Source: a virus. Taken from it: a stretch of 28,996 nucleotides of DNA. The notes below the pieces were generated by a model that ran no database searches, had not been told where the DNA came from, and saw only the letters and a program-made list of their open reading frames with translations. Location of the stretch: positions 1 to 28,996 of the IMG/VR virus record IMGVR_UViG_3300042887_001784; one strand, given 5' to 3'. This document shows positions 1,160 through 21,340 of this stretch, in pieces; the stretch's first letter is position 1; each line of letters opens with the position of its first letter. A program made the position numbers and the translations under genes.

Positions 1160-1160
1160 A

Positions 1161-4100: not shown

Positions 4101-4784
4101 ATGCAATAATATAAGTGATGGATTATCATAATAACTTACTGGTGTATTATCAACATCATATAACTTATGACCAACCACCACGGCAGATATATTTGGTATA
4201 CCATTAGGATATACAGCAGGATCAGCAACCAGTTTGGCATATATACTGGCGATACCATTTAGTCTATGATCACTGGTCCATTCTGTGGCAGGCGTCATAA
4301 CATATGCTGTTTGGTTATTTGTACCAACCTTATATGTCATTGCCAGTTTATCGGCTGGGAATATTGTACTTTGACCGCTACCACTGCTAAAAGCAACCAC
4401 ATCATTGAAGAAGATATTCTTGAACTCGCTTACTTCGTGTCCAGCAATACCAACAATCATATGTAAAAACTCATTCTTACCAGAGAAGTTGCTGCTGTTG
4501 GTGCTGATAAATAATATAGGACCAGATACACGATTGATGCCATATATCACTCTGCGTGATGCTATGGTGTCTCTTGTCATTGTAATCTTGCCATTGGCGT
4601 CGCTTTGCAGATTGCCAAATGCTGGTATCTTTTGCATTGATCGTATGCTGGCATATGTGCCTGCGGCAACGACGGCATAAGCAGCATATGTGGCGGCAGT
4701 AGGAGCCCAAACAGGCATACTTACAGCGACTGCTCCCCAAACTTCTAATATCAATGTAGCAACTGCTGGGATAATCTGTGGCAT
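1161..4784 (-). CDS. Tail tip / central fibre protein (lambda J-like) with C-terminal S74 self-cleaving chaperone
   Basis: 1207 residues. The N-terminal 490 or so residues resemble phage tail tip attachment proteins, including an Ala-rich hydrophobic stretch at about 5-48 and the family-like region around ARDVCNYEPYG. Two fibronectin-III-like domains follow at about 500-605 and 605-700, then a short GATGASGSAG collagen-like bit and a stretch with GDLWWDTDDNYKPYRWNG resembling fibre regions of J proteins. The C-terminus (about 1105-1207) is an intramolecular chaperone of the peptidase S74 / endosialidase type, ending in a coiled coil. The Ser and Lys of the presumed catalytic dyad fit S1111 and K1116 in SGLKYKTNI, although the usual Asp after Ser is Gly. 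The protein should form the tail tip and contact the receptor. It directly follows the NlpC/P60-like gene through a TAAAATATG junction. Confidence 0.92.
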   Translation of the reverse strand: MPQIIPAVATLILEVWGAVAVSMPVWAPTAATYAAYAVVAAGTYASIRSMQKIPAFGNLQSDANGKITMTRDTIASRRVIYGINRVSGPILFISTNSSNFSGKNEFLHMIVGIAGHEVSEFKNIFFNDVVAFSSGSGQSTIFPADKLAMTYKVGTNNQTAYVMTPATEWTSDHRLNGIASIYAKLVADPAVYPNGIPNISAVVVGHKLYDVDNTPVSYYDNPSLILLHYLKNYFGATSDEINTASFAAARDVCNYEPYGAGTGKRYTCNYTFLLNTKPATIIENILKSCYGKLAYSNGQFIIKAGAYSTPTVSLNEDDLIGGITVTTKTSQANAFNSVRGIYIDGNPYSVSNAAVQPDEYYTSSYQASDFVPITSSFYLNEDNGIENPIDLEMPSVSDHTVARRIAKLTLLDSRQDLTVSLTTKISGLQLIAGDNVYLSLKRYGWENKVFEVNELNINTDLSIAMVLKETAATIYDFPVDEDVDRDLSPNTNLPSPFSVVAPFGFSAVETTTIDKDGTVFPSATLSWSASYSGSIADVALEFKNTASANFDALALVSRTDNTFTTLDVVAGNTYMFRARNVNYLGVYSPFVSSSLYIGGDNTAPQTPTNIVATGGSGSFSLTWTNPAVDTDYKFTRIWLNTANNFGGSTLEGTISGTTWNKTISSSSIYYAWLQNIDTSNNTSSVSSPVNATVAAIGAGATGASGSAGNIQYQIYRRSATQPSTPTGNLTPAFWSTSIPADDGNTLWVSNGIISGADGITLIGSWSTPERLNGKVSWYQTTAPTGVSLAIGDLWWDTDDNYKPYRWNGSTWQAVDDGRITPISQSVVNYGDQYALTVTTTGTNRVSGFRILNQSSAASEFVVQADVFKIYNTTTAGITQSFVADANGVYMPQALIRELDAGKITAGTINATVKLTAAKLESPEITGSGIMINSQNGMRYQDNNGNFIITGGSANGESNGAQIDLVGVGGGGAGTRGTLVLSAGNVGTTSGDGTIRFRTAATEQGQVQRNGTLYWNNGVDVRGTSNRLGDNHYNNNSIEVGFYDQADRATYIDFISSTAATDYDFRIIRDSGTNGNTSLSHKGNGNIYFNTDGTGKFIYNADVDAPAFNTTSGLKYKTNIRGFYTSLDILNKLEAKMYDLKDGSKKNVVGLIAEEVNEVYPQIVGKDSEGKPDSIDYSKLTPLLLTAIKEQQLMIENLRQRITILERR

Positions 4785-6361: not shown

Positions 6362-8836
6362 TTAGACTGGTGATATTCCTTTGGCATATGAACCACCACG
6401 CTGTCTGGCATCAAGAACACCAGCCATTGCTTCACTCTTGAAGCGTGGTAATAGTTGTAGCATTTCTGCTCGCACAGTTTGGGCAACACCAGTCTGCACA
6501 TATATATTCTGCACTACATTGGTTGACTCACCCGGTTGCATATCATTTGGCAGTATATATCCATTCTGTGCTGGAACAAATGTTTCTGGACCTGCTTCAC
6601 CAACACGATATGCTCCACCCATAGCAACAGGACCACCTCTTGCTCTTGGAGTTAGACCAGTTAGTTGTCCAAATGCTGCACCAGCAACAGGATTTATAAA
6701 TCCTATGGAAGCCATTATACCTTGCAGTATTGCTGTGCGTAATATCAATACAGTGATGTCTTTTAGAATACTCTTGAATACATTCTTCAGGGCATCACCA
6801 AAGTTCTGTCCTTCTACTATTGCTCTGCTGAACTGGTCAGCAAAGTCAGACATATACTGGAAGCCTTGTGCTATTGCTTCATTTCTGGTCAAGAATACCT
6901 TTGCTTCTGCCTGAAGAAGCATTATCTTTTTCTGCTGATCTGTAAGAGCCAATCTGATAGCACCTTTTTCCGACTCTCTGGATGCTGCAAGAAGTTTATT
7001 TATTCTAACAAGATCTTCTGTATATTGTGCTTCACCAAGAAGTTGCTTGTCGTTTAGTGCTATAGCAATTTCTCTTTGATATATCGCATCCTTTTGTTGT
7101 TTGATGGTTAGTGCAGCAAATGTTGCTTCTGTTTGATACTTGGCTTGTATTGCAGCTGCTTCTTGCTGTAATAACTCAAGCCTTCCTTGAGTCAATGTGC
7201 CTTGTTGCTCATATCCCTGCAATATCTTTTGTAATGTAGCAACTTCAGTCTTTGCAAGTGCCTCAAAATATGCATTGGACTCTTTTAGTTTGTCATCCAA
7301 CTCTGCTAATGGTCTCGATATATCTCTAACCTCTTTATTGCTATTGCGTAAAACATCCAATATATTGACATTTGACCCTCTTGGTAAAGCAATCAAATCT
7401 CTTTGTAGTTTCAAGTATTTTTCTGTTGGGTCATATAATGCTCTATATGAACTACCTAAACTATCTATTACTGTTCTTCTTTCTTGGTCTGTTCTTATAC
7501 CATTGGCAACAAGAGCATCCAAATCTTCTAAGATTTTCTTATATCTGTTTGCTGGGTCAATAGCATCATCATATGCAGCACCAAGAAGTTTTATATTATC
7601 AGCCTTTTGTTTTTCGGATAAACCTTTATCAGCATTTATCTTTGCTACTTCTGCGGCATATTTTTTGACCGGGTCAACCGCAAATACATAAGCCTGTGAA
7701 ATGCCAGCAATAAGTTTGAGCCTATCTTCTTCACTCAACCTATTTTTCTTTACCAGTTCATTTATTTTATCTACTTCCGAGGCATATTTTGCCGCAGGGT
7801 CAATGCTGGCAAGAATACTATCTCTTACTTTTCTAAATGCTTCTGCCTGCAATGCAAGTGCGGCTGCTCTTTCTCTATCTGCCGCTGCTCTTTGGCGTAG
7901 CAATGCCTGTTCTTGTTGTGCCTGTGCCACATCGCCAATACCAGTATTTGCTCTACCTTGTGCTTCTTCTATAGCCTTTCTAAAGTTTGCAGCACCTGCC
8001 AATCCACCTTGACCCATAAACGCAGCACCTGTTGTTGAACCACCCGGTGCATTTTTTTGCAGGTTCATCAACTGTTGTGTCGCCAATACTACTTGTCCAG
8101 CAAACTCTATTGCTGCTCGTGTAATAGTTGTAAAGGTTGATGTAGCACTATCACCAAGTCTATCCAATGCTGCTATTGCTTCTTCACTGTTTACAAAAAT
8201 ACTATCCGTGGCTTTTTTTATACCACCAGATGCTGCAATATCCTGAAGAGCATTTAATACTTTTGCTGAACTTTTACCAAGAACTTCTTGAGCAAGTGCG
8301 GCTCTTTTGGCAGGATCAGATATACCATCTAATGCTCTGGAGAACCTTTCTACCTTATCTTCTGGAGACAGTTGTATAAAACTATTGGCATCAATACCTA
8401 ACTGTGTAAAAGCATCCTGTAAAGATTTATTTCCTTCTGACGCATCTATGGCACTCTTTTGTAGTTTGTTGAATACATTGCTTACATCTTCTAATGTATT
8501 TCCACTTTTCTGAAATACACTCTCAAATCTTTGCAAGTTTGATGTGCTTATATTTAGTTGATCAGACAGATCCTGTAATCTACCAGCAGAGTCAAGTATT
8601 TGTTTAGCAAAAGAGGCAAATGCTCCACCAACTGCAATATTACGAAGTTGATTTAGTTGACGGCTCAATGAGCCAATGGAACTACCAGTCTTTTTAGCAG
8701 AGTTTGATATGCCATCAAAACTCTTTGAGGCATCATTTGCTGTCTTTTTTGTTTGAGTTTCAACAATCTTTAGCCCCTGTAGATACTTTGATACATTGGC
8801 TATAAAATCAACGGCGATGGTGCTGATGGTGCTCAT
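6362..8836 (-). CDS. Tail tape measure protein
   Basis: 824 residues, the longest protein between the tail chaperones and the tip genes, as expected for a tape measure. Residues 1-130 are helical with Ser/Lys-rich heptads. The middle is alpha-helical and Gln/Ala/Glu-rich. Four copies of a repeat of about 41 residues start with DPxxKY at about 346, 388, 427 and 469 (DPAAKY, DPVKKY, DPANRY, DPTEKY), each followed by an LSE-type helix and an LGxxY helix. The C-terminal part holds a hydrophobic segment (about 700-725), an ARGGPVAMGGAYRVGEAGPE motif and a GYILPND-like motif, a signature seen in lambda gpH-type tape measures. It sets tail length and is ejected with DNA. An AT-rich leader with TATAAT and ATACTTATATAA lies just upstream. 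Confidence 0.93.
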   Translation of the reverse strand: MSTISTIAVDFIANVSKYLQGLKIVETQTKKTANDASKSFDGISNSAKKTGSSIGSLSRQLNQLRNIAVGGAFASFAKQILDSAGRLQDLSDQLNISTSNLQRFESVFQKSGNTLEDVSNVFNKLQKSAIDASEGNKSLQDAFTQLGIDANSFIQLSPEDKVERFSRALDGISDPAKRAALAQEVLGKSSAKVLNALQDIAASGGIKKATDSIFVNSEEAIAALDRLGDSATSTFTTITRAAIEFAGQVVLATQQLMNLQKNAPGGSTTGAAFMGQGGLAGAANFRKAIEEAQGRANTGIGDVAQAQQEQALLRQRAAADRERAAALALQAEAFRKVRDSILASIDPAAKYASEVDKINELVKKNRLSEEDRLKLIAGISQAYVFAVDPVKKYAAEVAKINADKGLSEKQKADNIKLLGAAYDDAIDPANRYKKILEDLDALVANGIRTDQERRTVIDSLGSSYRALYDPTEKYLKLQRDLIALPRGSNVNILDVLRNSNKEVRDISRPLAELDDKLKESNAYFEALAKTEVATLQKILQGYEQQGTLTQGRLELLQQEAAAIQAKYQTEATFAALTIKQQKDAIYQREIAIALNDKQLLGEAQYTEDLVRINKLLAASRESEKGAIRLALTDQQKKIMLLQAEAKVFLTRNEAIAQGFQYMSDFADQFSRAIVEGQNFGDALKNVFKSILKDITVLILRTAILQGIMASIGFINPVAGAAFGQLTGLTPRARGGPVAMGGAYRVGEAGPETFVPAQNGYILPNDMQPGESTNVVQNIYVQTGVAQTVRAEMLQLLPRFKSEAMAGVLDARQRGGSYAKGISPV

Positions 8837-8880
8837 AGATTATAATATTCTTTTATATAAGTATTATAAACGCAGTCTGT

Positions 8881-9198
8881 TTAGTCTTTTTTAGACGACA
8901 TATATTTTATAAACTGCGATTTTATATCAGCCTCTTGCTCATTTACATTCTTGTCTGGCTGCGGCATAAAGTCTTTTGGCTCATACTTCTTTTTGCCACC
9001 ACCCATACAGTTTGCCATTACACTACAAAGAAGGGCAGTCCTGAAGTCTGCCCTTTTTTCTTTTTCCTTCCAAGCACCTACGAGTGCTATATACAATGGA
9101 TCACTTGGACTCATTTTATACAAGTCTTCAAGTGCAACCGGCACATTTAGTTCTACTATGGCAAATGCCACAATATCGTGTGCCGATATCTTCTTCAT
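8881..9198 (-). CDS. Tail assembly chaperone, second component (lambda gpT-like)
   Basis: 105 residues, directly upstream of the tape measure gene. The central part (AFAIVELNVPVALEDLYKM) is helical, then RTALLCSVMANCMGGGKKKYEP is followed by DFMPQPD; a C-terminal xKxYxPxDFMP segment is typical of the second chaperone encoded before tape measure genes. Its ATG overlaps the TGA of the first chaperone gene (ATGA at 9195-9198), so it appears to be made by termination-reinitiation. In lambda-like phages the second part is made by a -1 frameshift, but no canonical slippery heptamer is visible at the end of the first gene and the -1 frame has a TAA just before this ATG. Expected to bind the tape measure during tail assembly. 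Confidence 0.75.
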   Translation of the reverse strand: MKKISAHDIVAFAIVELNVPVALEDLYKMSPSDPLYIALVGAWKEKEKRADFRTALLCSVMANCMGGGKKKYEPKDFMPQPDKNVNEQEADIKSQFIKYMSSKKD

Positions 9199-9422
9199 TT
9201 AGGTTCTTCGCTAAATATGTTTAGTTCGGCTTGGAATGTTTCACTACTCAAGTTCTCAACTGTATCAAATGTAGTGGTTTGATCCTTGGTATACTTGATA
9301 AGAAATACCAAGTCTCGCAAGTCTGTTGCGGACTTGCCTTCTTTTTGGAATAGTTCCATTGCGTTTTTGCCAGTTACTTTTTCATAGTGGCACATTGAAC
9401 GTAGACTTATTTTATCAAACAT
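9195..9422 (-). CDS. Tail assembly chaperone, first component (lambda gpG-like)
   Basis: 75 residues, acidic and helical: MFDKISLRSMCHYEKVTGKN, then a middle helix DLRDLVFLIKYTK and an acidic C-terminus. Small size, acidic helical character and position one gene before the tape measure fit the gpG-type chaperone. A good Shine-Dalgarno, AAAGGAACTCAAATG, precedes the start at 9422. The start region overlaps the last 8 bases of the GIY-YIG endonuclease gene, which is inserted between this gene and the tail tube gene. The 3' end overlaps the next gene by ATGA. The family call rests mainly on context. Confidence 0.72.
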   Translation of the reverse strand: MFDKISLRSMCHYEKVTGKNAMELFQKEGKSATDLRDLVFLIKYTKDQTTTFDTVENLSSETFQAELNIFSEEPK

Positions 9423-10044
9423 TTGAGTTCCTTTTGTTTATTGTTATTTGTTTTCTATCTAAAGTTTTTTTGTACTTCATTCCTTTTCTACGCTTGTTGG
9501 CCTCACCAATCTTACGTTTATGTTCTTCTGTAAATATTTTTCCTATCATTTTTGCTCTTTGTTTTTCTATAGAAATAAAAGATGGAGATTTTCCTTTATT
9601 ATGGGCCACTCTGCCTTTTCTCGTCTTTGACATTTTAGACCGTGTTTCTTCTGAAATCGTTTTTCCTATTAGGGACTCGCTAATCCTTCTTCGTGTATCT
9701 TCGCTGCATATATACTTACCATTGCCACCAATGCGTAAATTATATCCATTTGGAGCTATACTATCTAATCTGATAGACCATTCAGTTTCTTTACTATGTA
9801 ATTTTTCTATTGCACATTCTTCCAGCTTATAACAACTAAATGCTTCTTTCCCATATTTTGCAAATGATGAACTTATTAGTGGTTGAGTAGATTGAATGGT
9901 ATTTAGATATTTTTCTATTCTCTGTGGAACGTGAATACTTTCTCCAACATACCATTTGGATGTTTCGTGGCATTGAATACCATATATACCAGAAAAACAA
10001 CTTCCTGTATATACTATACTTCCACTGGAAAATAATAAATCCAC
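9415..10044 (-). CDS. GIY-YIG homing endonuclease with NUMOD3 repeats
   Basis: 209 residues with a GTG start at 10044, supported by AAGGA seven bases upstream. Residues about 19-36 show SGIYGI and KWYVGES, the GIY-YIG core; an Arg follows in VPQRIEKYL, a Glu lies in KETEW (85-89) and GYNLR closes the domain. Residues about 115-200 contain NUMOD3-type DNA-binding repeats: a SEDTRRRISESLIGK segment, a SEETRSKMSKTRKGR segment and a TEEHKRKIGEANK segment. These are hallmarks of phage and intron homing nucleases of the Seg / I-TevI type, which cut DNA near their own insertion point. It is free-standing, placed between the tail tube gene and the tail chaperones, and follows a separate NUMOD3 gene by 2 bases. 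It has no structural role in the virion. Confidence 0.9.
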   Translation of the reverse strand: MDLLFSSGSIVYTGSCFSGIYGIQCHETSKWYVGESIHVPQRIEKYLNTIQSTQPLISSSFAKYGKEAFSCYKLEECAIEKLHSKETEWSIRLDSIAPNGYNLRIGGNGKYICSEDTRRRISESLIGKTISEETRSKMSKTRKGRVAHNKGKSPSFISIEKQRAKMIGKIFTEEHKRKIGEANKRRKGMKYKKTLDRKQITINKRNSNV

Positions 10045-11003: not shown

Positions 11004-11618
11004 TTATGGTTTACCATACTTTTTAATGACTTTTTTATATAGTTTATTAACATCGCTGCTCAACTTGCTTATTTTCTCTACAGTATCAGCACTATAATCA
11101 TTCTGCATAGATAATAAGTCCAGTTCCATACGAGTTTTTACATACATAAATCTTATGTCATTCTCGTCCACCCAACTATGCTTACATCTATTAGTCTTCT
11201 TTGGTACTATCTGTATGTTATAATACCTATATGCCATCGGCTTTAGATGCTTGTTTTCTGGCTTATTAAACCAACTGGCAGATAGTATATGATCAATCTC
11301 GTGTGTCTTCATCATTTCATTGAACTGCTTTTGGTTCATATTCATTGTAGCAAGCAACTGCTCTCGTGTCATACCAAGGTTACTTACTACCTTATAACTG
11401 TGTCTCCAGCGATTTAGCAAATAACTGCGTAATGCTATACGCATTTTGATCTCCTCAAACTTTACTGGATCTGACCGCAGTTTACGCTGATAATCACGGT
11501 TATATGATTTGATATATTCCTTGTTGTTCTTTTGCCACTCTTTGATATAACCTTTATATGTCTTATAACTTGCCGATAATGTGCTTTCTGGGCGTTCTAT
11601 ATTTGTTGCTGTTGTCAT
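11004..11618 (-). CDS. HNH endonuclease, probably a free-standing homing type
   Basis: 204 residues. The HNH core is visible: EIDHILSASWF (Asp109-His110), YYNIQIVPKKTNRCKH with Asn134 and Asn143, and a Lys146-His147 end. The N-terminal 100 residues are basic and helical (YIKSYNRDYQRKLRSD; MTREQLLATM) and may bind DNA. No zinc Cys pairs are seen. Such genes in late phage operons are usually mobile homing nucleases. It starts with ATGACAACAGC at 11618; the same 13 bases (GCTGTTGTCATAG on the plus strand) occur at 10937-10949 and 11608-11620, flanking the gene. A hairpin lies in its 5' leader and a terminator-like hairpin directly follows it. It is not essential to virion structure. Confidence 0.75.
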   Translation of the reverse strand: MTTATNIERPESTLSASYKTYKGYIKEWQKNNKEYIKSYNRDYQRKLRSDPVKFEEIKMRIALRSYLLNRWRHSYKVVSNLGMTREQLLATMNMNQKQFNEMMKTHEIDHILSASWFNKPENKHLKPMAYRYYNIQIVPKKTNRCKHSWVDENDIRFMYVKTRMELDLLSMQNDYSADTVEKISKLSSDVNKLYKKVIKKYGKP

Positions 11619-11763: not shown

Positions 11764-11991
11764 ATGTTTGATCTTGACGACGAAGAAGACAAAGAAACAA
11801 CATATGCGGTGACAGTAAGATACAAGAGGTTCAGTATCCACAAAAATATTGTGATCAATCTGGCAATAGAATGCTGCTGCGAGAACTATGATGAATACGA
11901 GGATAAAATGGTGGTATACTTCAGCGACAAAAAGAACGCTCAAATATACACCTCGTTTTTAACCAAGCATATAAAACCTAAAAGTAACTGA
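11764..11991 (+). CDS. Small acidic protein on the plus strand, unknown
   Basis: 75 residues: MFDLDDEEDKETTYAVTVRY, then a VINLAIECCCENYDEYE segment with three adjacent Cys, and a basic C-terminus KHIKPKSN. No family is recognised. It is one of the few plus-strand genes inside an otherwise minus-strand late region, which suggests a separately acquired gene. There is no Shine-Dalgarno, but TATACT lies 8 bases before the ATG, so any transcript could be leaderless. Its 3' end overlaps the convergent gene at 11978-12730 by 14 bases. The antisense reading frame gives a hydrophobic peptide of unlikely composition, so the plus-strand reading is preferred. Confidence 0.5.
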   Translation: MFDLDDEEDKETTYAVTVRYKRFSIHKNIVINLAIECCCENYDEYEDKMVVYFSDKKNAQIYTSFLTKHIKPKSN

Positions 11992-12730
11992 TGCTATAGC
12001 CATTTACTTTCTGTTCTCGTGTTATAAGTGCCTTGCGTAATGTCTCGTGGCTGATATCAAGTTGTTTGCTTGTTTCACGCAGATTTACAAATCGTATGAC
12101 TTTGCCATCTTTGCGGAATGTTATTTTGCTTTCTTTTTCGGCTCTTGTTTCTATTTTCTGCCTGATATATTCATCCCAACTTACATTATCAACTCTTGTG
12201 CCTTTATAACACCAGTTGTTTGCTTCTACGCCATCACGCAGCATACAATATATAAGATGAGCAGTCAGTCCAGTTTGTGTCATTATATTTGATCTGTTGT
12301 CTCCAAGATGAACTTCAGCACCATTCTTTGTATTGATAAGATAATGCCCAGTCATTCTTACTTTCCATACTTTACTTGCATCTATCTTTGGCGGCACAAC
12401 CATTCTTGGCCATTTTCTGCGTTCACCCCAGTATGATGAGCAGGTCTCTTTATAGTATATCTCATTAAAGTATTTGGCCTTGTCATCCAGATGCTGTATA
12501 TTATTGCTATAAAATCCAGCAGGTTCCTTGAAGTTTACCTCTACAGATACATCCTCATCATAACTCAAGCACATCATATAGCCATCTTTGCCTTTTAGTA
12601 TATGAGCAACTGAAGAACCAGCATCTATTGTTTTTACATACTCAAATCCATCTACCTTTTGTTTGTTTGTTCGCACAAACGAAGGCATATAAACTTTCTC
12701 ATATCTACCCATTATATTGTTGTATCTCAT
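11978..12730 (-). CDS. Putative DNA-binding protein with NUMOD1-like C-terminus
   Basis: 250 residues; a second possible ATG at 12712 gives MGRYEKVYMPSFV. The last 45 residues read KVIRFVNLRETSKQLDIS then HETLRKALITREQKVNGYSI, a pattern like the NUMOD1 helix-turn-helix repeat found at the C-terminus of homing endonucleases. The middle (TQTGLTAHLIYCMLRDG, NNWCYKG) may be a second, weaker copy. No HNH, GIY-YIG or LAGLIDADG residues are seen, so this may be a homing protein that has lost or replaced its nuclease domain, or an unknown regulator. It lies between the holin gene and the HNH gene in the accessory island and is convergent with the small plus-strand gene. The family call is tentative. 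Confidence 0.6.
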   Translation of the reverse strand: MRYNNIMGRYEKVYMPSFVRTNKQKVDGFEYVKTIDAGSSVAHILKGKDGYMMCLSYDEDVSVEVNFKEPAGFYSNNIQHLDDKAKYFNEIYYKETCSSYWGERRKWPRMVVPPKIDASKVWKVRMTGHYLINTKNGAEVHLGDNRSNIMTQTGLTAHLIYCMLRDGVEANNWCYKGTRVDNVSWDEYIRQKIETRAEKESKITFRKDGKVIRFVNLRETSKQLDISHETLRKALITREQKVNGYSISYF

Positions 12731-12768: not shown

Positions 12769-13086
12769 TTAGGGCTTTATATAGTCGTCTGGTTTCTTAC
12801 CTATTCTTTTTACAAGTTTTACAACCGCAGCAATCAACTCTGGACTGGTTACGCCAACAATACCATAACTGATTGCTTTTATGAAACTGCTCACAGGCAT
12901 TTGCTCAAGCATAAACCACGCTATAGTGCTGCATATAACAGCGGCAAGTATTTTACGCACAAAGTCAAAGATAGGCATTGATTTGCCTTCTATCATCAAT
13001 CGTGCGGCCATACCAAGGCCACCTACAATGCTGACAATCCAGCCGCCAGAAATAAACTCTTTTATTATTTGTTTCTCGTCGCTCAT
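12769..13086 (-). CDS. Holin, three transmembrane segments
   Basis: 105 residues with hydrophobic segments at about 13-32 (GGWIVSIVGGLGMAARLMI), 42-62 (FVRKILAAVICSTIAWFML) and 67-92 (FIKAISYGIVGVTSPELIAA), an acidic N-terminus and a basic tail KLVKRIGKKPDDYIKP. Size, spacing and the charged tail fit class I holins of the LydA / phage holin 3 type, which form holes in the inner membrane to release the endolysin. Translation is coupled to the preceding small gene by ATGA (13083-13086). No endolysin gene is adjacent and none was recognised in the window, so the lysis cassette is split or the endolysin lies outside. Confidence 0.78.
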   Translation of the reverse strand: MSDEKQIIKEFISGGWIVSIVGGLGMAARLMIEGKSMPIFDFVRKILAAVICSTIAWFMLEQMPVSSFIKAISYGIVGVTSPELIAAVVKLVKRIGKKPDDYIKP

Positions 13087-13316
13087 AGTGTTATATTGTT
13101 TAGTTGATCTATAACATCTTGGAACTCTTGCTGTGTTATTTCCACAGGCTGAAAATCACTTATAACATCAAGGCTTTCTATTTCGCTGTTGCCATATAAT
13201 GTGGTTGGGTCGGAGGGCAAAAACATTCCTGTATTGCTATCGTCTGGCAGATATCTGTCAGGTCCGATTTTTTCATTTTCGTTGATAATCTTTAGTTTAT
13301 ATTTGAAATATTTCAT
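13083..13316 (-). CDS. Small protein B, possible fibre chaperone, paralogue of 14322-14561
   Basis: 77 residues when started at the ATG at 13316, preceded by GGAGG seven bases upstream and overlapping the TGA of the kelch gene (ATGA). This start gives MKYFKYKLK, matching MKYFTYTLK of the paralogue, so the longer frame from 13331 is not used. Both share a GPDxxLPxDSxTG core, a central acidic segment and an ITxxEF motif near the C-terminus. An ITxxEF-like ending recalls small fibre assembly proteins, and each copy is paired with a kelch-like adhesin gene, so a role as a dedicated chaperone or a base for the adhesin is inferred. It is not a recognised family. Confidence 0.72.
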   Translation of the reverse strand: MKYFKYKLKIINENEKIGPDRYLPDDSNTGMFLPSDPTTLYGNSEIESLDVISDFQPVEITQQEFQDVIDQLNNITL

Positions 13317-14320
13317 CCTAAACCTCCACATCCGGCTGATGCATATGTTTTATTCATAGCAGTTACAGCAGACACTGCTTCTGTACTAAATGGCATTTTA
13401 TATGCTCTTGTTGTTTCTGGCTGAAAATCAACTCTATTTACATAACCACCCATTGTATATCCAGTAGTTCTGCTGCTATGTGAACTATAACTGGTTACTC
13501 TTCTTGCACCAGTTGATGTTGATATTGTTGGAAAGTTTGCTGATGTAGTAGATACACTATCTGTTTGATAGTTTACTTTCATCCAATATATTGTTGGTTG
13601 ACCGGGGTCTGGTGCTCCACTTGGTAAATAACCACACTTTGATAACTCTGCGGTCATACTACCATTGCCACCAGCAGCAAGAGCATATGGTAAAGTAAGA
13701 GAACCATTAGCAGATGTAGTATCTGTAGTAAATGGCATTTTATCAGCAGTTGTTTGCAATGAGAAACTTACTGGTGTATTTTTATATCCACCAAAATATA
13801 ATGCCGATGTTTGAGTACTCAATACTGTTCCTTGACCTCTCGCAGTTGATAAGTTGGCTGAAGTTTGAGTGGATGTTGTATCATTGCTGAATGTTGTCTT
13901 ATATGCTGTAGTTTTATCGTATGTGTTTTGTCCAGATGATCCTCCATAACTATACATCGCAAGACTATTGCCAGTTCCTCTATGATCAGATGTTGCTTCT
14001 GGTAAGTTTGCTGATGCCTGTGCAGTAGTTGTATCATTACTATATGTTATTTTATCAGCATTTAAACTTGGTATATATGATAAACTTGTCATACCACCTA
14101 TACAATAACCTTTTGTATTTGATCCAAAACAACTAAAATATGTTTTTCGCTGTGTTAGATTTGCTGAAGTTACCAATGATGTTGTTTCACTATCATAAAA
14201 CGCCCTATCAACTCTACTTGGTGGTTCATCAACATAAAATGGAGTGCCTCCAGCACTATATGTTTTGGTATTGGTTTGATACCACGGCAAAGAATATGTT
14301 CTTTTCTGTGCGATAAACAT
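13313..14320 (-). CDS. Kelch-like adhesin B (putative appendage or receptor-binding protein)
   Basis: 335 residues from the ATG at 14320, one base after the TAA of the preceding gene (TAATATG); a longer frame from 14365 would add an unlikely His-rich leader overlapping that gene. Six kelch-like units are visible, each ending near a GG pair: TYSAGG, GYCIGG, MYSYGG, LYFGG, GYLPSG, GYTMGG, separated by DxTTxxxSANL-type stretches. A beta-propeller is likely. Similar kelch-like proteins occur in marine phages. It ends ASAGCGGLG, as the paralogue at 15114-16112 ends TAGCC. The two share full-length similarity, so they come from duplication and may recognise different receptors or form a mixed appendage. 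The function is inferred. Confidence 0.78.
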   Translation of the reverse strand: MFIAQKRTYSLPWYQTNTKTYSAGGTPFYVDEPPSRVDRAFYDSETTSLVTSANLTQRKTYFSCFGSNTKGYCIGGMTSLSYIPSLNADKITYSNDTTTAQASANLPEATSDHRGTGNSLAMYSYGGSSGQNTYDKTTAYKTTFSNDTTSTQTSANLSTARGQGTVLSTQTSALYFGGYKNTPVSFSLQTTADKMPFTTDTTSANGSLTLPYALAAGGNGSMTAELSKCGYLPSGAPDPGQPTIYWMKVNYQTDSVSTTSANFPTISTSTGARRVTSYSSHSSRTTGYTMGGYVNRVDFQPETTRAYKMPFSTEAVSAVTAMNKTYASAGCGGLG

Positions 14321-14321
14321 A

Positions 14322-14561
14322 TTATGCTGATCCAGATGGTGGAACAGGTGGGCTATAAACAGCATTGAACTCTGCTTCTGTTATTTCCAATGCTTCATAT
14401 TCTTTTAAAAAATCAAGATTATCTATATTAGCAGCAGCATAATATACATATGGATTTCCTAATATTTGATATCCTGTTTTGCTATCTTCTGGTAATAATA
14501 CATCTGGTCCTGCGGCCAGTCCTTCACCCACTGCTTTTAGTGTATATGTAAAATATTTCAT
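14322..14561 (-). CDS. Small protein A, possible fibre chaperone, paralogue of 13083-13316
   Basis: 79 residues: MKYFTYTLKAVGEGLAAGPD, then LLPEDSKTGYQIL, a central YYAAANIDNLDFLKEY and a C-terminal ITEAEFNAVYSPPVPPSGSA. Start and stop are tightly coupled: ATGA with the upstream coiled-coil gene (14558-14561) and a one-base gap to kelch B. The GPDxxLPEDSxTG core and ITxAEF motif are shared with small protein B. Pairing with kelch genes suggests a chaperone or anchoring role. No known domain is recognised. Confidence 0.72.
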   Translation of the reverse strand: MKYFTYTLKAVGEGLAAGPDVLLPEDSKTGYQILGNPYVYYAAANIDNLDFLKEYEALEITEAEFNAVYSPPVPPSGSA

Positions 14562-15103
14562 TGTGTTAGTTCTTTCTTTGCATTGGTCTCAATGAATGTT
14601 ATAGCAGGATTTTCTATAGCCTTTGATTGCCATAATGCATCAAGATTACCAACACCTATTCTGCCTTGAGCCAATAAATCTTCCTGACATTGTCTTGCCA
14701 AACGAATATTCCAATATTCACCCTCACCAGACTGTATCTGCTCATAAGTGAACTTTGGCATAGCCTCAAATATGTTATATAATGTATTCCATTCACGCAC
14801 TTGATTTTCCAAGCCAAGTTCCATTTCCTCAAGGTCTATGGTCAATAGTTCCTTTTCATCCTGATCTGTAGTTGATGCTATTTTCTTTAGCAACTGTTTT
14901 TTCTGCACCATCTGTCTGCGTAGATTGAATGTGCGAACCTGTAGTTCCAATACACATTGACTATATTGTCTTGGTGCTGTGTCGTGCTGACCAACAACAA
15001 AATGTTCTATCTGATAGTTGCTTCTGGCCTGATTTATGGCGTGGAAAGCAGCCTCAAGTTCTGATTTTTTCTCGTTTACGATTTTATCTATTTGGTATTC
15101 CAT
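14558..15103 (-). CDS. Coiled-coil phage protein, conserved in environmental phages, unknown role
   Basis: 181 residues, strongly helical: MEYQIDKIVNEKKSELEAAF, then a QYSQCVLELQVRTFNLRRQM segment, an acidic heptad region around DEKELLTIDLEEMELGL, and a C-terminus with FEAMPKFTYEQIQSGEGEYW, RLARQCQEDL and GRIGVGNLDAL. The QYSQCxLELQ and GRIGVGNLDAL segments resemble a protein recurrent next to fibre genes in marine phages, but its function is not established to my knowledge. It starts at 15103 after the palindromic junction TAAAATATATTTTATG, and overlaps small gene A by ATGA. The position within the adhesin cassette suggests a part in appendage assembly. Confidence 0.72.
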   Translation of the reverse strand: MEYQIDKIVNEKKSELEAAFHAINQARSNYQIEHFVVGQHDTAPRQYSQCVLELQVRTFNLRRQMVQKKQLLKKIASTTDQDEKELLTIDLEEMELGLENQVREWNTLYNIFEAMPKFTYEQIQSGEGEYWNIRLARQCQEDLLAQGRIGVGNLDALWQSKAIENPAITFIETNAKKELTQ

Positions 15104-15113
15104 AAAATATATT

Positions 15114-16112
15114 TTAGCAGCAGCCAGCAGTTTGAGCCTTTGCCACAGTTTTATTCATAGCAGATATAGCAGATAAAGTTTCTGTACTTATTGGAAGTTT
15201 ATATGATGTTACTACTTGTGTATTTGTATATCCACCAAGTGTATATGCTGTTGTTTTACTGCTTATACCACTACCTTGTGACGTTGCTGTTGGATATGCT
15301 GCTGACATATTTGCTGAAGTATCTGTAGTATATGTTACTTTAGTCCAAGTAGTTGTTGCACCATCACCAGAAATATATCCGTGCGAACTTAATGTTGAGT
15401 TGATTGATCCATAGTTAGCATAAGCTTTTGCAGTCGGTAATGCTAATGAAGTATTATTTGCGGTTGTTTCAGTGCTAAATGGCATTTTATCAACAATAGT
15501 TTGTCTTGTAAATGAACCGGGTGTATTTCTAAAACCACCAAGATACATAGCAGCAGTATTACTGCTTAATGTAGTACCACTTGCTCTACCAGTAGCAAGA
15601 TTTGCTGATGTTTGTGTCGCAGTTGTATCTGTACTATATGGTGTCTTATATGCCGCAGTTTGATCATTGCTATTTGCGGCAGCACTTCCACCATAGTTAT
15701 ATATTGCTATATTATATACTGCCGTAAGTATACCGGATCTTGCTGCTGGCAATGCTGCACTTGCATTGCTTGCCATAGTATCATTGCTATGTGTTAGTTT
15801 GTTCGCACTGGTTTGTGAAGTATCTCCAGCATCTGTTCCACCAATATAATATGCTTGTGTATCATTTCCACCAGAAGCAAGTTGTGCTCTTGCTGCTGTA
15901 AGATTGGCAGATGTTGCTGCGGCTGTAGTCTCGCTTGAGAATGTAGCCTTATCAGCAGTAACTACTGGCCCCGATGATCCACCAATACTAAATCCTTTGG
16001 TATCTGTGCCATACCAAGTTGGAATGACAGTACCAGTGTATACTGGATTTACACTTCTATATGAAATGCCCAGTTTGCTGCCAAGGCGAGGATACTTTGT
16101 TGATCGTAGCAT
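15114..16112 (-). CDS. Kelch-like adhesin A (putative appendage or receptor-binding protein)
   Basis: 332 residues. Six kelch-like units with GG-ending strands: GFSIGG, YYIGG, IYNYGG, AMYLGG, GYISG, AYTLGG, with repeated DTTAxxxSANL and FSTET-type stretches between. A beta-propeller of about six blades is likely. It shares full-length similarity with kelch B, including TAYKTPYSTDTTATQTSANL against TAYKTTFSNDTTSTQTSANL and the Cys-containing end AGCC. The N-terminus MLRSTKYPRLGSKLGISYRS is basic and may anchor the propeller to the particle. It lies in the cassette between the neck and tail tube genes. Ligand and location are inferred, not shown. Confidence 0.8.
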   Translation of the reverse strand: MLRSTKYPRLGSKLGISYRSVNPVYTGTVIPTWYGTDTKGFSIGGSSGPVVTADKATFSSETTAAATSANLTAARAQLASGGNDTQAYYIGGTDAGDTSQTSANKLTHSNDTMASNASAALPAARSGILTAVYNIAIYNYGGSAAANSNDQTAAYKTPYSTDTTATQTSANLATGRASGTTLSSNTAAMYLGGFRNTPGSFTRQTIVDKMPFSTETTANNTSLALPTAKAYANYGSINSTLSSHGYISGDGATTTWTKVTYTTDTSANMSAAYPTATSQGSGISSKTTAYTLGGYTNTQVVTSYKLPISTETLSAISAMNKTVAKAQTAGCC

Positions 16113-16115
16113 ATA

Positions 16116-16481
16116 TTATGTATTTTCTCTACCATATATAACTACATTGATACTTCCAGTTTGTGTTGCTCTCATTGTTATTTTATCACTATAGTTAGTA
16201 TCGGAGTTTAACACAAATGGTATTTTTGGAGCAACTTCAAGTGCAGCAGAACTTGAAATACCTTCACTTAAACGCTGTATAGCAAATGAAGCACTAAATG
16301 ATGCTGTTGGTGTGGTTGCTGTAAATGGAAACCACATTTGTGCGGTTGCTGTGGCACCACTATAGTTAAACATCCAGATGCTGCCAATCTCTACAGATTT
16401 GCTTACTGGTGCTGTATACACAATACTTTCAGTAGCGTGTAGTATTTGACTTGCGAGTTGTTTTATATCTCCGTATGGCAT
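16116..16481 (-). CDS. Small beta-rich structural protein (fibre or decoration)
   Basis: 121 residues: MPYGDIKQLASQILHATESIV is a short helix, then beta-strands VYTAPVSKSVEIGSIWMFNY, MWFPFTATTP, RLSEGISSSAAL, IPFVLNSDTNYSDKI and TGSINVVIYG. This VYTxPxxKxVxIxSIxxxNxS layout is common in environmental phage proteins annotated as structural or decoration proteins. The start at 16481 is preceded by TAATAGGACAATATT, with a usable AGGA. It precedes kelch A by 3 bases. Its role is inferred from context: attaching or capping the appendages. Confidence 0.65.
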   Translation of the reverse strand: MPYGDIKQLASQILHATESIVYTAPVSKSVEIGSIWMFNYSGATATAQMWFPFTATTPTASFSASFAIQRLSEGISSSAALEVAPKIPFVLNSDTNYSDKITMRATQTGSINVVIYGRENT

Positions 16482-16510: not shown

Positions 16511-16996
16511 TTAGTTGAAGCGTGCGATAATCGTTTTATCACCCGGTACATTTACTCTTATTTCGGCAGTTCTACTATATTGATTAGTTCCGTTTATAAA
16601 TGACATTCCTGTACCAACAAGTTGCCATCTATCAAAGTATGGCATAAGTGTGTCATTATATACCAGACTCATAGTCATAAACTTATATGCTCCGCCAGTT
16701 ACATTCAATACTGTTGTAGAACCATATGATGGACTTGTGGCCGTAAATGATCTATTCATTGGATTGTATCTGCTCATTTGTATATAAGCATATTCTTGTG
16801 GTGGAGGAGGTTCTGGTGTTGGTGCGATTGTTGGTGTTGGTGTAGCAGTATATGATGGTGTTGGAGTTGGAGTTGGCGTTGCCGTTGCAGTGATCGTAGG
16901 TGTAGGTGTTGGTGTGAAACTAACACTTGGTGTAGGAGTAGGGGTTGGACCTTCTCCATCTGTAGGCTTATGCTTCCATTTTACACATTTAAACAT
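16511..16996 (-). CDS. PT-repeat linker protein with C-terminal beta domain
   Basis: 161 residues. Residues 1-15 are short and basic ([15 protein letters not shown]), residues about 16-68 are a TPTPTP linker with a PEPPPPQE end, and the last 90 residues form a beta-rich domain ([40 protein letters not shown]). It lies between the giant fibre gene and the small structural gene, and starts at the TAAAATATG junction after the gene upstream. The linker resembles that of the tail tip protein gene at 155-1159, so one module seems shared between neck-proximal and tip-proximal proteins. No anchor or signal peptide is visible. A structural role is likely, with the exact location unknown. Confidence 0.7.
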
Positions 16997-16999
16997 ATT

Positions 17000-19900
17000 T
17001 TATAGTCCGCTATACATCCATACATCCTGTATAGATATACCAGCAGTTCCGGCGTTTGTAGCATAACTTGCTGTGAGAGCATAACTTGCACTTACAGATC
17101 CGTTTATTACATTGAGTGCCAATGTAGCATATGATGCTGTAGTTGCATTTTCAGCATAACTTGCAGTCAAAGATCCATTGATGACATTTAGTGCGATTGT
17201 AGCATAAGAAGAACTTTCTGCGTTGTTGATATAACTTGCTGTATTAGCAAAACTGGAAGTTATGGAATAACTTGATGTTGTAGCAAATGATGCTGATGTT
17301 GCATTTTCTACTGGTGTTAGATCTCTTACATCAACAAATATTGTGCAAGGGCCACTCGGATCCATTATATTACCAACACATAATATTGTTCCACTTGTTG
17401 GTGGTGTAACTGTCAATGATCCAGTTGCATCCAAATATATTCTATCACCCGGATTTGCTCCATAAATACTATATCCAAGATCTGTTGGACCATATGTTAC
17501 TAATGGACAACTTTCTCCACCAGCAGTTTCTTTGGTTGTTATACCAACAAAGTCATTGCCATTATTGTTTACAATATCTGGCGATCCAAAAACTGAAGTA
17601 TATGATGATGTTGGTAATGTTACAAAGCCAAATCTATATCTCATATCTTTGGCACCATTATTGCCACTCCAAACACTGTTTGTTATGCAAACTGCTGTTC
17701 CTTTTGGCACAGTTCCTCCACTGTTATTTAGTGCATTAGCAAACAACTGCTCACCAAGTCTATAATCAAAGCCATCTACACTCAAATCAAGGCCCGGAAG
17801 TGTAAGGTTCTTGGCTAATACATTGCTTCCAAGGTTGCTTGCCCAATCTGATGGACTGCTGAAAGTTATACCGTTGGTTGTGCTTATAGTATTTGCAGTA
17901 TTTGCTGTTTCAGCATAATCACTATAACTTGATGTTTCGGCATAACTTGCGGACTGTGCCATCAATGCATAACTGGATGATGCGTGTATTACAGTTATAT
18001 TACCAAGATCGTCCAAGAACTTGAAGTGCTCTGGATATGCACCATCGTTCATTGTGAACTTATATCCCAAACCAGATCCACTCAACACGAATGAGTCAAG
18101 TTGAGCACTTACTTCTATAGATATTATTCCAGTTGAACCTGCTGATATATCAAGCGTATTATTATCACCGATAATCTCTGTGCCAACAAAGTGGCTTGAT
18201 GTTAGAGCATAACTTGCTGTGCCAGCAAATGAACTTGTGGTTGATATATTAGTGATATTATCCCAAGGCATTGATGTTGGTGTAATGCCGCTGGTACCAG
18301 ATGTTCCACTGGTTCCGCTGCTGCCGCTGGTTCCGTTTTGACCGCTTGTGCCACTTGTTCCAGCCTCACCACTTGTACCGGATGATCCAGATGTTCCACT
18401 TTCTCCGCTGGTTCCGCTGCTTCCAGAACTACCACCAGTTCCGCTTGTGCCACTGCTGCCAGATGATCCAGATGTTCCACTTTCTCCGCTGGTTCCGCTG
18501 CTTCCAGAACTACCACCAGTTCCGCTTGTGCCACTTGATCCAGAAGATCCGTTTGCACCACTGGTTCCGCTTGATCCACTGCTTCCAGATGAACCATTGG
18601 CTCCACTTGTGCCACTGCTGCCACTACTACCTCCTGTGCCAGAGGTTCCAGACGATCCACTGCTGCCATTGGCACCGCTTGTGCCACTGCTGCCAGATGT
18701 TCCACTGCTTCCGCTTGATCCACTACTGCCTCCTGTGCCACTGGTTCCGCTGCTGCCACTTGTGCCATTAGCACCACTTGTTCCGCTGCTACCAGATGTT
18801 CCGCTATAACTCAAAGCATAACTTGCTGTTGTAGCCCAAGAAGATGTTGCATTTAGTGCTCCAACAACTGTCAATGATCCAGTAATCAATACAGATCCTG
18901 TGGCTTGAACAGTTCCTATAAATCTGTGTATATCCAGAGTGCTGTCTCCAAATACATTTGTGCCAGAAGCATACATATCACTTGCTGTAATAGTTGTGAT
19001 ATTAGCATTGGTTGCTGTAAGTTGTGATACAATGGCGGTTGAGCCACTCAAATAAGAAGCACTTGCTGCGGTTCCACCAGCAGCATTCAGAGCATATGAT
19101 GCCGTTATGGCATAACTTGCTGTGCCAGCAAACTGGCTGGTATTTGTTATACCAGTTATGTTTGCATACGGCATTGATGTTGGAGTTGTGCCAGATGTTC
19201 CAGATGTTCCGCTGCTTCCACTGGTTCCGTTGGCTCCGCTGGTTCCACTGCTGCCGCTTGTTCCATTTGCACCGCTGGTGCCACTGCTACCAGATATTCC
19301 ACTGGTGCCACTTGATCCACTACTACCACCTGTTCCACTGGTTCCAGATGTTCCGCTGGTGCCACCAGTTCCACTTGTGCCAGAACTACCAGCAGTTCCA
19401 GATGTTCCGCTACTTCCACTCGTGCCATTTGCACCACTAGTTCCACTACTTCCACTGGTTCCAGAACTACCACTGCTGCCGCTTGTTCCACTTGTGCCAG
19501 AACTACCACCTGTTCCGCTTGTTCCACTTGATCCAGTTGTTCCAGATGTTCCGCTTGAACCACTGCTACCACCTGTTCCACTTGTTCCACTTGTTCCGCT
19601 GGTTCCGCTGGTTCCTGCTGTTCCACTGGTTCCACTCGTTCCACTATAACTCAAGGCATATGATGCTGTGATTGCATAACTGGATGTGCCATTTATTGGT
19701 CCATTTACAGTTAGAGAACCACTGACAAACATTGATCCAGTAAGTTCTACTTTACCCTCAAAAGAATGAACATCAAGAGGACTATCACCAAATCTGTTTG
19801 TGCCATCTGCTGTGATATATGATGCAGTCAGTTGTCCAACTGTTATATTATTGGCAGAACTAAATGCATTTCCACCACCATTGCTCAACTGGAAAGAACT

Positions 19901-21340
19901 ACTTATTGTGCCACCACCGCTGCCAGCATTCAGGGCATAACTTGCAGTCAGTGCATAACTAGCACTAACACTGCCATTGATTACATTTAGTGCTGTTGTA
20001 GCATATGAAGCACTCTTGGCCGCTTCAGCATAATGAGAATAAGAAGATGTTAGAGAGCCACTCAATGTATTGATGGCATATGTAGCAAAGTTTGCTGTGC
20101 CAGCAGTTGTAGCGTTGTTTGCATTTATAGCATAACTGGCTGTATTTGCATTCAGAGCATAACTTGCTGTAGCACTCAATCCAGATACATAACTTGCAGT
20201 AAGAGCAAATGAAGCACTGGTTGCATTTGTTGCTGTATTGGCAGACACCGCAGTTTGTGCGTTATTGCTATAACTTGCAGTTGTAGCAGTATTTGCTGTT
20301 TGTGCTGTTGCTGCAAAACTTGCTGTTGCCGAATAACTAGAAGATAGTGATCCATTGATGCTGTTTAGTGCAATGGTGGCATAACTTGCTGAAGTAGCAG
20401 TTGCTGCATTGACAACATAACTTGCAGTTGTTGCTATAGATGCTGTCTGTGCATAACTTGCACTGATACTACCATTGATTACATTCAGAGCAACAAGTGC
20501 ATAATCGCTGGTTGATGCATTGCCAGCATTTTGAGCAAATAAACTATAAGAAGATGTTTCGCTGGCGTTGAGGGCATAACTTGCGGTTAATGCTTTATTA
20601 GCATAACTGGATGTGCCTGCAAATGAACTTGTGTTGGTTATACCAGTTACTCCAGTATATGGAACAAACAACGCATTGAATGCAGTTTCAGCAACACTTG
20701 TATAAGAAGAAGTAACACTACTTTCTGCTGTATTGCTTTTTAATGCATAACTTGCACTTGTGGCACTTGATGCATATGAACTACTTACAGCATTAGCATA
20801 TGTGCCAGTAACTGGAACATTGATACTACCAGACAATAATATAAGATTACCTGTTATTGTAACATCGCTGCCAGTGATTTGCAATACATTGCTTCCAGTA
20901 AGAATATATCTGTCTTGCCATATTGCTATTTGTGGAGACTGACCTTCACCAATAACAACATTACGATATGGTATATCTGCACCATAAACTACATCAAAAC
21001 TTATTCCGCGTGTATATATGGCTGTATCTATATCAAAATCATCTGTTTCACTGTTCAATACCATCTGTATTTCATTGTCATATCCATTCAGGATTGAGAT
21101 AATGAAGTCACGCATTTCTTCTGCTTTTTCTATGGTCTTTGCTTTAGCAGCAAATGTAACTGTTTCAGTAAGTACACTTGGGCCACTCATTGTCTGGCTA
21201 CCCAGAGTTCCATCACGAGTAAATACTATACAAGGTAATGACACATTTTGATTTTCAAATGTGCTTTCACTATATACTGGCACCTGCAAGTTCAGGTGGA
21301 TGAGTTGGCGTAAGTTGTTATAATATTCTGTGATGGCCAT
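17000..21340 (-). CDS. Giant fibre fused to a tail-terminator-like N-terminus
   Basis: 1446 residues. Residues about 1-130 resemble DUF3168 / gpU-type tail completion proteins: VPVYSESTFENQNVSLPCIV then an ETVTFAAKAKTIEKAEEMRD stretch, and the gene directly follows the gp10-like gene, where a tail terminator is expected. About 165-490 and 1345-1435 are ASYA/ALNVINGS repeats. Two related modules (GTNRFGDSPLDVHSFEG and GTNVFGDSTLDIHRFIG) each lead into a GTSGTSG/GSSGTSG collagen-like stretch at about 562-720 and 845-1018. Residues about 1190-1345 form a beta domain with VPKGTAVCI, GDRIYLDATG and ILCVGNI, a pattern seen in phage fibres. I infer a ring protein at the head-tail joint carrying long whisker-like fibres. 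The domain junction is continuous in one frame. Confidence 0.75.
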   Translation of the reverse strand: MAITEYYNNLRQLIHLNLQVPVYSESTFENQNVSLPCIVFTRDGTLGSQTMSGPSVLTETVTFAAKAKTIEKAEEMRDFIISILNGYDNEIQMVLNSETDDFDIDTAIYTRGISFDVVYGADIPYRNVVIGEGQSPQIAIWQDRYILTGSNVLQITGSDVTITGNLILLSGSINVPVTGTYANAVSSSYASSATSASYALKSNTAESSVTSSYTSVAETAFNALFVPYTGVTGITNTSSFAGTSSYANKALTASYALNASETSSYSLFAQNAGNASTSDYALVALNVINGSISASYAQTASIATTASYVVNAATATSASYATIALNSINGSLSSSYSATASFAATAQTANTATTASYSNNAQTAVSANTATNATSASFALTASYVSGLSATASYALNANTASYAINANNATTAGTANFATYAINTLSGSLTSSYSHYAEAAKSASYATTALNVINGSVSASYALTASYALNAGSGGGTISSSFQLSNGGGNAFSSANNITVGQLTASYITADGTNRFGDSPLDVHSFEGKVELTGSMFVSGSLTVNGPINGTSSYAITASYALSYSGTSGTSGTAGTSGTSGTSGTSGTGGSSGSSGTSGTTGSSGTSGTGGSSGTSGTSGSSGSSGTSGSSGTSGANGTSGSSGTSGTAGSSGTSGTGGTSGTSGTSGTGGSSGSSGTSGISGSSGTSGANGTSGSSGTSGANGTSGSSGTSGTSGTTPTSMPYANITGITNTSQFAGTASYAITASYALNAAGGTAASASYLSGSTAIVSQLTATNANITTITASDMYASGTNVFGDSTLDIHRFIGTVQATGSVLITGSLTVVGALNATSSWATTASYALSYSGTSGSSGTSGANGTSGSSGTSGTGGSSGSSGSSGTSGSSGTSGANGSSGSSGTSGTGGSSGSSGTSGANGSSGSSGSSGTSGANGSSGSSGTSGTGGSSGSSGTSGESGTSGSSGSSGTSGTGGSSGSSGTSGESGTSGSSGTSGEAGTSGTSGQNGTSGSSGTSGTSGTSGITPTSMPWDNITNISTTSSFAGTASYALTSSHFVGTEIIGDNNTLDISAGSTGIISIEVSAQLDSFVLSGSGLGYKFTMNDGAYPEHFKFLDDLGNITVIHASSSYALMAQSASYAETSSYSDYAETANTANTISTTNGITFSSPSDWASNLGSNVLAKNLTLPGLDLSVDGFDYRLGEQLFANALNNSGGTVPKGTAVCITNSVWSGNNGAKDMRYRFGFVTLPTSSYTSVFGSPDIVNNNGNDFVGITTKETAGGESCPLVTYGPTDLGYSIYGANPGDRIYLDATGSLTVTPPTSGTILCVGNIMDPSGPCTIFVDVRDLTPVENATSASFATTSSYSITSSFANTASYINNAESSSYATIALNVINGSLTASYAENATTASYATLALNVINGSVSASYALTASYATNAGTAGISIQDVWMYSGL
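18290..18805 (-). repeat. Collagen-like GSS/GTS triplet repeat, second block
   Basis: Coding sequence for Gly-Thr-Ser / Gly-Ser-Ser triplets with occasional Ala-Asn, Glu-Ser or Gly-Gly, about 170 residues. The underlying DNA is a tandem array of 9-base units. Such arrays change length easily by slippage, which would alter fibre length. Confidence 0.85.
18381..18535. repeat. Perfect 74-base direct repeat, period 81
   Basis: Bases 18381-18454 recur without change at 18462-18535. The period of 81 bases is 27 codons, nine Gly-X-X triplets, so the copy keeps the reading frame. Identity at synonymous positions shows a recent duplication inside the collagen-like block. Confidence 0.85.
19187..19645 (-). 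repeat. Collagen-like GSS/GTS triplet repeat, first block
   Basis: The N-terminal-proximal block of the same protein, about 155 residues of Gly-X-X triplets that begin GTSGTSGTAGTSG and end GTSGTSGTTPTSMP. It is preceded by the first SGSLTV-type module and followed by the second, so blocks and modules appear duplicated as a unit. Confidence 0.85.

Follow-up and report, generated by a model that had tools for sequence, protein, structure and literature searches.

The kelch cluster and its setting

We analysed the whole of IMG/VR virus record IMGVR_UViG_3300042887_001784 (28,996 bases, classed as possibly a fragment; hereafter the window) and concentrate here on a cluster of genes on its - strand that encodes two kelch proteins (kelchA and kelchB), two small proteins (smallA and smallB) and the open reading frame (ORF) ORF181. 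The phage is a freshwater one, and the - strand of the window reads as the structural module of an HK97-type siphophage. The order is terminase, portal, protease, capsid, head-tail adaptor, head closure and neck proteins, followed by a collagen-like fibre of 1446 amino acids (aa), ORF161, ORF121, the kelch cluster and a holin-like gene, and finally by endonuclease-like genes, the major tail protein, tape measure and tip genes. The labels terminase, portal, protease, tape measure and tip are our presumption from sequence and gene order, not the outcome of a profile match.

An initial annotation had described the kelch and small genes as two translationally coupled adhesin-chaperone pairs. The four ORFs lie where it placed them, and alignment upheld both paralogies: kelchA and kelchB are 48% identical, smallA and smallB 41% identical over 68 residues (E 2e-19, in a single comparison). 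Profile matches agreed with the kelch assignment of both large proteins, and the predicted fold with that of kelchA. The junctions are also as described, with a 4-base ATGA overlap between kelchB and smallB and the sequence TAATATG leading from smallA into kelchB. The arrangement in two pairs did not hold. ORF181, which had been omitted, sits between kelchA and smallA, so that the gene order is kelchA-ORF181-smallA-kelchB-smallB-holin and the partner of smallA in its ATGA overlap is ORF181, not a kelch gene (Table 1). Tight junctions are ordinary in this window: 4-base overlaps were found at 5 of the 28 consecutive-gene junctions examined, three of the five being in the kelch cluster. The start of kelchB was set at 14320, not at the upstream ATG at 14365, a choice supported by relatives that begin MFI. 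Loci and contigs used for comparison are given L numbers below.

Table 1. Genes of the kelch cluster and features flanking it
Feature	Coordinates	Strand	Description
kelchA	15114..16112	-	332 aa, predicted kelch-type beta-propeller, proposed virion adhesin
ORF181	14558..15103	-	PHROG 1409 protein, conserved kelch neighbour, proposed docking/assembly partner
smallA	14322..14561	-	79 aa, proposed adhesin chaperone
kelchB	13313..14320	-	335 aa, diverged second kelch, variable slot
smallB	13083..13316	-	77 aa, second small protein
ORF121	16116..16481	-	121 aa, directly upstream of kelchA; 62-75% identical in L004-L009
collagen-like fibre	17000..21340	-	1446 aa; Pfam Collagen E 7.7e-36
holin-like gene	12769..13086	-	phrog_6384 holin E 2.2e-4; end of variable slot

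A PHROG 1409 protein travels with kelch

Judged from sequence comparison, the partner that travels most faithfully with kelch is the PHROG 1409 protein and not the small protein. ORF181 matches phrog_1409 over residues 11-160 (E 9.2e-18), which places it in PHROG 1409. In the larger scan with an ORF181 alignment the best 80 of 120 matches were kept, giving 79 loci; L119 brought the ORF181 loci to 80, and these were screened with family profiles together with L123, which has no ORF181 (81 loci). A kelch gene lay no more than 60 bases upstream of ORF181 in 20 of the 80, namely in all 17 closest loci (L036-L052) and in L058, L059 and L119. Several of these contigs are near-identical, and by our own grouping they represent 13 distinct lineages. 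Their backgrounds include HK97-type siphophages and T4-like phages with gp13/gp14/gp15-type neck genes. A kelch match at E<1e-3 was present somewhere in 55 of the 81 loci; at this threshold a decoy control gave 0/923 for reversed ORFs, 0/923 for shuffled ORFs and 60/923 for the real ones. Kelch also occurs without a detected ORF181, for example in L028 and L029. L027, L028 and L029 are the marine viruses AG-345-L05 and AG-345-O18 and phage S-SKS1; L027 and L028 contain very long kelch ORFs (916-1017 aa), and an ORF181-like domain is found in a 631-aa ORF of L027.

Divergence of the cluster genes was compared across 8 related lineages (28 pairs) using partial correlations of distances with permutation values. 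The correlation between kelch and ORF181, given small, was 0.68 (permutation 0.009), and that between ORF181 and small, given kelch, was 0.56 (0.021). Between kelch and small, given ORF181, it was 0.08 (0.42). Leaving out one lineage at a time kept this order, with 0.56-0.92 for kelch-ORF181 and -0.04 to 0.24 for kelch-small. Kelch divergence tracks ORF181, not small.

The slot between smallA and the holin-like gene

Searches of GenBank phages gave no match for smallA (E<=1) or kelchA (E<=0.01), and IMG/VR and more distant members of the families therefore supplied the relatives. Five IMG/VR contigs of the close group have kelchA (L005; L006, L007; L008, L009), and all five share the order ORF121-kelchA-ORF181-small. 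What follows the small gene varies. L005 (IMGVR 3300008116_002215) has kelchB and then the holin-like gene; L006/L007 (3300008450_000920 / 3300042691_016555) have another kelch, 57% identical to kelchA, with an endonuclease-like gene behind it; a second kelch is missing from L008/L009. In L004 a divergent kelch, ORF181 and small are followed directly by the holin-like gene, which in the window lies inside the structural module and has an ATGA overlap with smallB.

A second kelch without a second small gene thus occurs in L005 and in L006/L007, and strict kelch:small pairing fails there. Among the contigs examined smallB was found in the window only; it does not follow kelchB in L005, nor the second kelch in L006/L007. 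Between the window and L005, identity is 49% for kelchB, 77% for kelchA, 92% for ORF181 and 77% for small. The kelchB proteins of the window and of L005 group in the tree with support of 90/96; the threshold for starring a fork was 95/80, and the gene-tree forks, this one included, fell short of it. The best reading is that kelchB and smallB were added in particular lineages, at a variable slot that may hold nothing, one more kelch, or a kelch and a small gene. KelchB and smallB would then be optional extras that diverge faster.

The kelch proteins are predicted propellers

By its AlphaFold2 model kelchA adopts a kelch beta-propeller fold. The predicted local distance difference test (pLDDT) value is 64 and the predicted template modelling score 0.70, with residues 1-35 under 50. 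The best Foldseek match in the PDB had an E-value of 7.8e-12; there were 263 matches at E<=1e-3, and the 50 listed were all kelch domains or kelch designs. A family profile built from 9 sequences matched solved kelch proteins (designed SAKe6, 1.8e-7; Keap1, ~2e-4; KLHL12, 3.6e-4), and GG recurs at ~50-residue spacing in several blades, as in the kelch signature. The Pfam kelch matches (PF24681 for kelchA) scored 24.7 and 23.7 bits, below the cut-off of 50. We take the matched structures to be six-bladed and, judging by them, propose six blades for kelchA; in a simple lag test without gaps, blade periodicity in kelchA did not reach significance.

Comparing kelchA of the window with that of L005 in segments whose borders we set ourselves, the middle of the protein retains 41-45 identical residues per ~50-residue segment, and most change falls in the N-terminus and the last two segments. 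KelchB is without most of the N-terminal segment of kelchA.

The small protein as a possible reduced tail fibre chaperone

The small gene was found in 10 contigs besides the window in which the upstream neighbourhood is visible, and kelch and ORF181 were present in 10/10. A small gene without kelch, which the initial annotation had named as evidence against its pairing, was sought in these 10 informative contigs and did not occur. L123, whose contig begins 1,272 bases ahead of the small gene, was uninformative and left out, and a weak match in L054 (a 250-aa ORF resembling a 2OG oxygenase, 13.5 bits) was set aside as chance. The small gene overlaps ORF181 by 4 bases (ATGA) in the window and at 8 loci (L036-L042, L119). 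In L044 and L047 its start is 1,214 bases beyond ORF181, and in this family the gap holds two 2OG-oxygenase genes. Kelch and ORF181 without a detected small gene were found at 7 loci in 4 lineages (L043, L045, L050-L052, L058, L059), and the contigs of L046, L048 and L049 stop too close to ORF181 for a judgement. In a T4-like relative, two 2OG-Fe(II) oxygenase genes lie between ORF181 and small (L018:3783-4987); an oxygenase-like ORF also follows ORF181 in L055 and L070.

SmallA aligns with the N-terminal half of longer T4-like proteins of 164 or 162 aa (L018/L019 and L119). In L018 and L119 this half is fused to a C-terminal domain that also ends two proteins with a tail fibre assembly (Tfa) annotation, Ochrobactrum POA1180 gp20 and Rhizobium P106B gp39, and that is found in proteins behind fibre-type genes of other phages. 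The N-terminus of P106B gp39 matches phrog_105, tail fibre assembly, at E 6e-12. In addition, the kelch protein of a T4-like relative opens with a 56-residue segment that recurs in a small protein directly behind a tail fibre gene of a Vibrio phage. The small proteins of the window have no Tfa-type C-terminal domain, the best match in the window (E 0.27) being to an unrelated ORF. The best reading of these sequence relationships is that small is a shortened, tail-fibre-assembly-like chaperone, and we infer that the C-terminal domain was lost from the short proteins rather than gained by the long ones.

The initial annotation's more general suggestion of an adhesin with an assembly factor is plausible and gained support from the kelch fold, the surrounding fibre genes, the 56-residue segment shared with the Vibrio phage protein and the domain shared with Tfa proteins. 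Its claim of a co-evolving kelch:small pair is not supported, given the second kelch genes that have no second small, the loci with kelch and ORF181 that lack small and a kelch divergence that follows ORF181.

Possible position on the virion

Residues 1-125 of the collagen-like fibre match the tail terminator family phrog_347 weakly (E 6.5e-4), and the two copies of the fibre in L042 match it at 5.7e-5 and 2.1e-3. In gene order the 1446-aa fibre fills what we take to be the slot of the tail terminator. In the T4-like L119 the module (7034-9685) lies just upstream of the Ad2, Hc2 and sheath-stabiliser genes, and in L054, L069, L070 and L072 ORF181 lies ~4-5 kb upstream of gp13/gp14-type genes. 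These positions hint at neck fibres; they would fit short tail fibres or fibres of another kind equally well. In L042 two terminator-collagen fusions (2198-4582 and 6776-9535) flank the kelch module, and in L008 a separate terminator-like fragment (3-161) lies just upstream of the fused copy (171-4640).

Interpretation

We think there is an even chance that the cluster is a single host-recognition module, composed of a kelch adhesin, its ORF181 partner and a reduced chaperone, and not two adhesin-chaperone pairs. KelchA would be an exchangeable propeller that the virion displays, probably on its fibres, and that may bind a host surface structure (glycans or proteins). ORF181 would be its dedicated partner, either docking the propeller onto the virion or helping in its assembly. 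The small protein may protect or fold the kelch binding surface, having presumably kept the variable N-terminal domain that binds the client and lost the C-terminal domain of its T4-like relatives.

Several results weigh against this. The co-divergence rests on only 8 related lineages, a small set in which the signal is partly phylogenetic, and the kelchA model has low confidence. An adjacent kelch is missing from 60 of the 80 ORF181 loci, many of them cyanomyovirus-type; among the latter, T4-GC_351 gives weak kelch matches in many and no kelch was detected in others. A sequence search of the PDB found no solved relative of ORF181. Searches with the small family, with full-length L018 and with the C-terminal domain missed the solved Tfa structures (E up to 10), and the small profile did not match the N-terminal domains of Tfa-annotated proteins; nor did searching PHROGs up to E 10 with the N-terminal domain of small link it to the Tfa N-terminal domain. 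The model of small (pLDDT 78.5) gave weak, generic alpha/beta matches (best Foldseek E 1.0, VIA Z 4.6), and the Tfa structures 5YVQ and 7YPX were not among the Foldseek or VIA matches listed for it, which does not exclude the fold. Finally, no protein of the cluster matches an annotated adhesin. The sequence shows gene content, paralogy, synteny, the domain fusion and, by prediction, the kelch fold; the functions in adhesion, docking and chaperoning discussed here are inferred.

Had each small protein chaperoned its own kelch, with the two pairs co-evolving for two receptors, the duplication of both genes, the ATGA overlap of kelchB and smallB and the constant company of kelch wherever small was found would be readily understood. 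This is nevertheless quite improbable, since ORF181 separates kelchA from smallA, a second kelch lacks a second small in L005 and L006/L007, kelch and ORF181 occur without small at 7 loci, and kelch and small show no co-divergence after accounting for ORF181. KelchB and smallB might instead be left over from a tandem duplication and drift with no function that is theirs. KelchB is the fastest-changing of the proteins compared between the window and L005, lacks most of the kelchA N-terminal segment and is missing from L008/L009. Both reading frames are, however, uninterrupted, the propeller repeats of kelchB have been kept, its grouping spans two lineages, and the slot has been refilled by a different second kelch in L006/L007, all of which makes drift unlikely.

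The cluster has neck and fibre genes around it, with the head-completion genes on one side and the major tail protein on the other; this would suit an architectural part, with kelch and ORF181 decorating a collar or fibre and stabilising the particle without binding the host; fast change by itself is no proof of receptor binding. Yet kelch is exchanged, duplicated and fast-changing beside stable neighbours, which is the pattern expected of an adhesin, and we regard a purely architectural role as similarly unlikely. Somewhat less so, though still on the unlikely side, is an exchange of roles in which ORF181 is the chaperone and small a minor virion part. The divergence of ORF181 goes with that of kelch, and the gene occurs at loci that lack small, but it is the full-length small protein that has a domain in common with annotated tail fibre assembly proteins; for ORF181 no such match was seen.

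Extending the single-module reading beyond the window, the cluster could belong to a widespread and undescribed host-binding device of aquatic phages, in which interchangeable, neck-borne kelch propellers are docked by dedicated PHROG 1409 partners and matured by a chaperone. The device would sit on terminator-fused collagen-like fibres in siphophages or be encoded just upstream of the neck genes in T4-like phages, and the siphophage chaperone would have shrunk to its client-binding half. Taken as one joint proposal this is speculative and rather doubtful. PHROG 1409, a family with no assigned function, turned up here in many cyanophages and freshwater phages; a link to a kelch adhesin would give it a testable role and offer a way into host recognition by phages that have not been cultured. 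A one-domain tail fibre chaperone, if true, would reveal which half binds the client.

Relation to known systems

According to the available part of PMC9608196, the Pam3 chaperone gp25 has a variable domain (1-55) that is N-terminal and binds the fibre and a helical domain (64-162) that is C-terminal and trimerises. The L119 and L018 proteins have the length and layout of gp25 as described there. Compared with the gp24-gp25 complex (PDB 7YPX), the small proteins of the window lack the C-terminal domain, the proposed client is a kelch propeller, and no sequence match to the solved chaperone was found. The Tfa proteins P106B gp39 and POA1180 gp20 have the C-terminal domain in common with full-length small homologues, whereas the small N-terminal domain is not recognisably that of Tfa. 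KelchA resembles the propellers of KLHL12, Keap1 and designed SAKe6 in predicted fold and profile match; unlike these, the window proteins stand in a phage structural context and have a low Pfam score.

In the marine cyanomyoviruses Syn19 and S-BM1, the cluster T4-GC_351/352/353 contains an ORF181 homologue, T4-GC_353, among fibre-type genes, and T4-GC_351 ('sericin 1 precursor-like') matches the kelch profile weakly (E 4e-8 to 2e-4). It differs from the window in that T4-GC_352 lies between T4-GC_351 and T4-GC_353 and that the small gene was not found. T4-GC_351 lies two genes upstream of the ORF181 homologue at L010:5745-7139, L085:3745-5139 and similar loci. The lactococcal neck passage structure with its carbohydrate-binding modules offers, in the available part of PMC6669499, another case of accessory host-binding parts at the neck; its folds are different. 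Full-text literature searches, which covered neither subscription papers nor preprints, listed no description of a kelch-PHROG 1409 module, going by titles, opening lines of abstracts and selected passages. The closest mention there, in the accessible text of PMC3037559, is of a Kelch-repeat protein unique to cyanophage P-HM2 within a co-isolated pair.

Other features of the window

A search for the host gave no ORF181 match among genome contigs and, for TerL, a single 27% match in a metagenome-assembled genome of Clostridia. The 204-aa ORF at 11004-11618, presumably HNH-like, shares its strand with the structural module in the window but has the opposite strand in L004, L006, L007 and L008. 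An ORF presumed from its sequence to be of GIY-YIG type and a weak NUMOD1 match (E 0.029), at 9415-10044 and 11978-12730, break up the tail module and flank the major tail protein region. The structural ORFs at 155-1159 and 16511-16996 have Thr-Pro-rich linkers and matches to PHROG families 15511 and 38031 in common.

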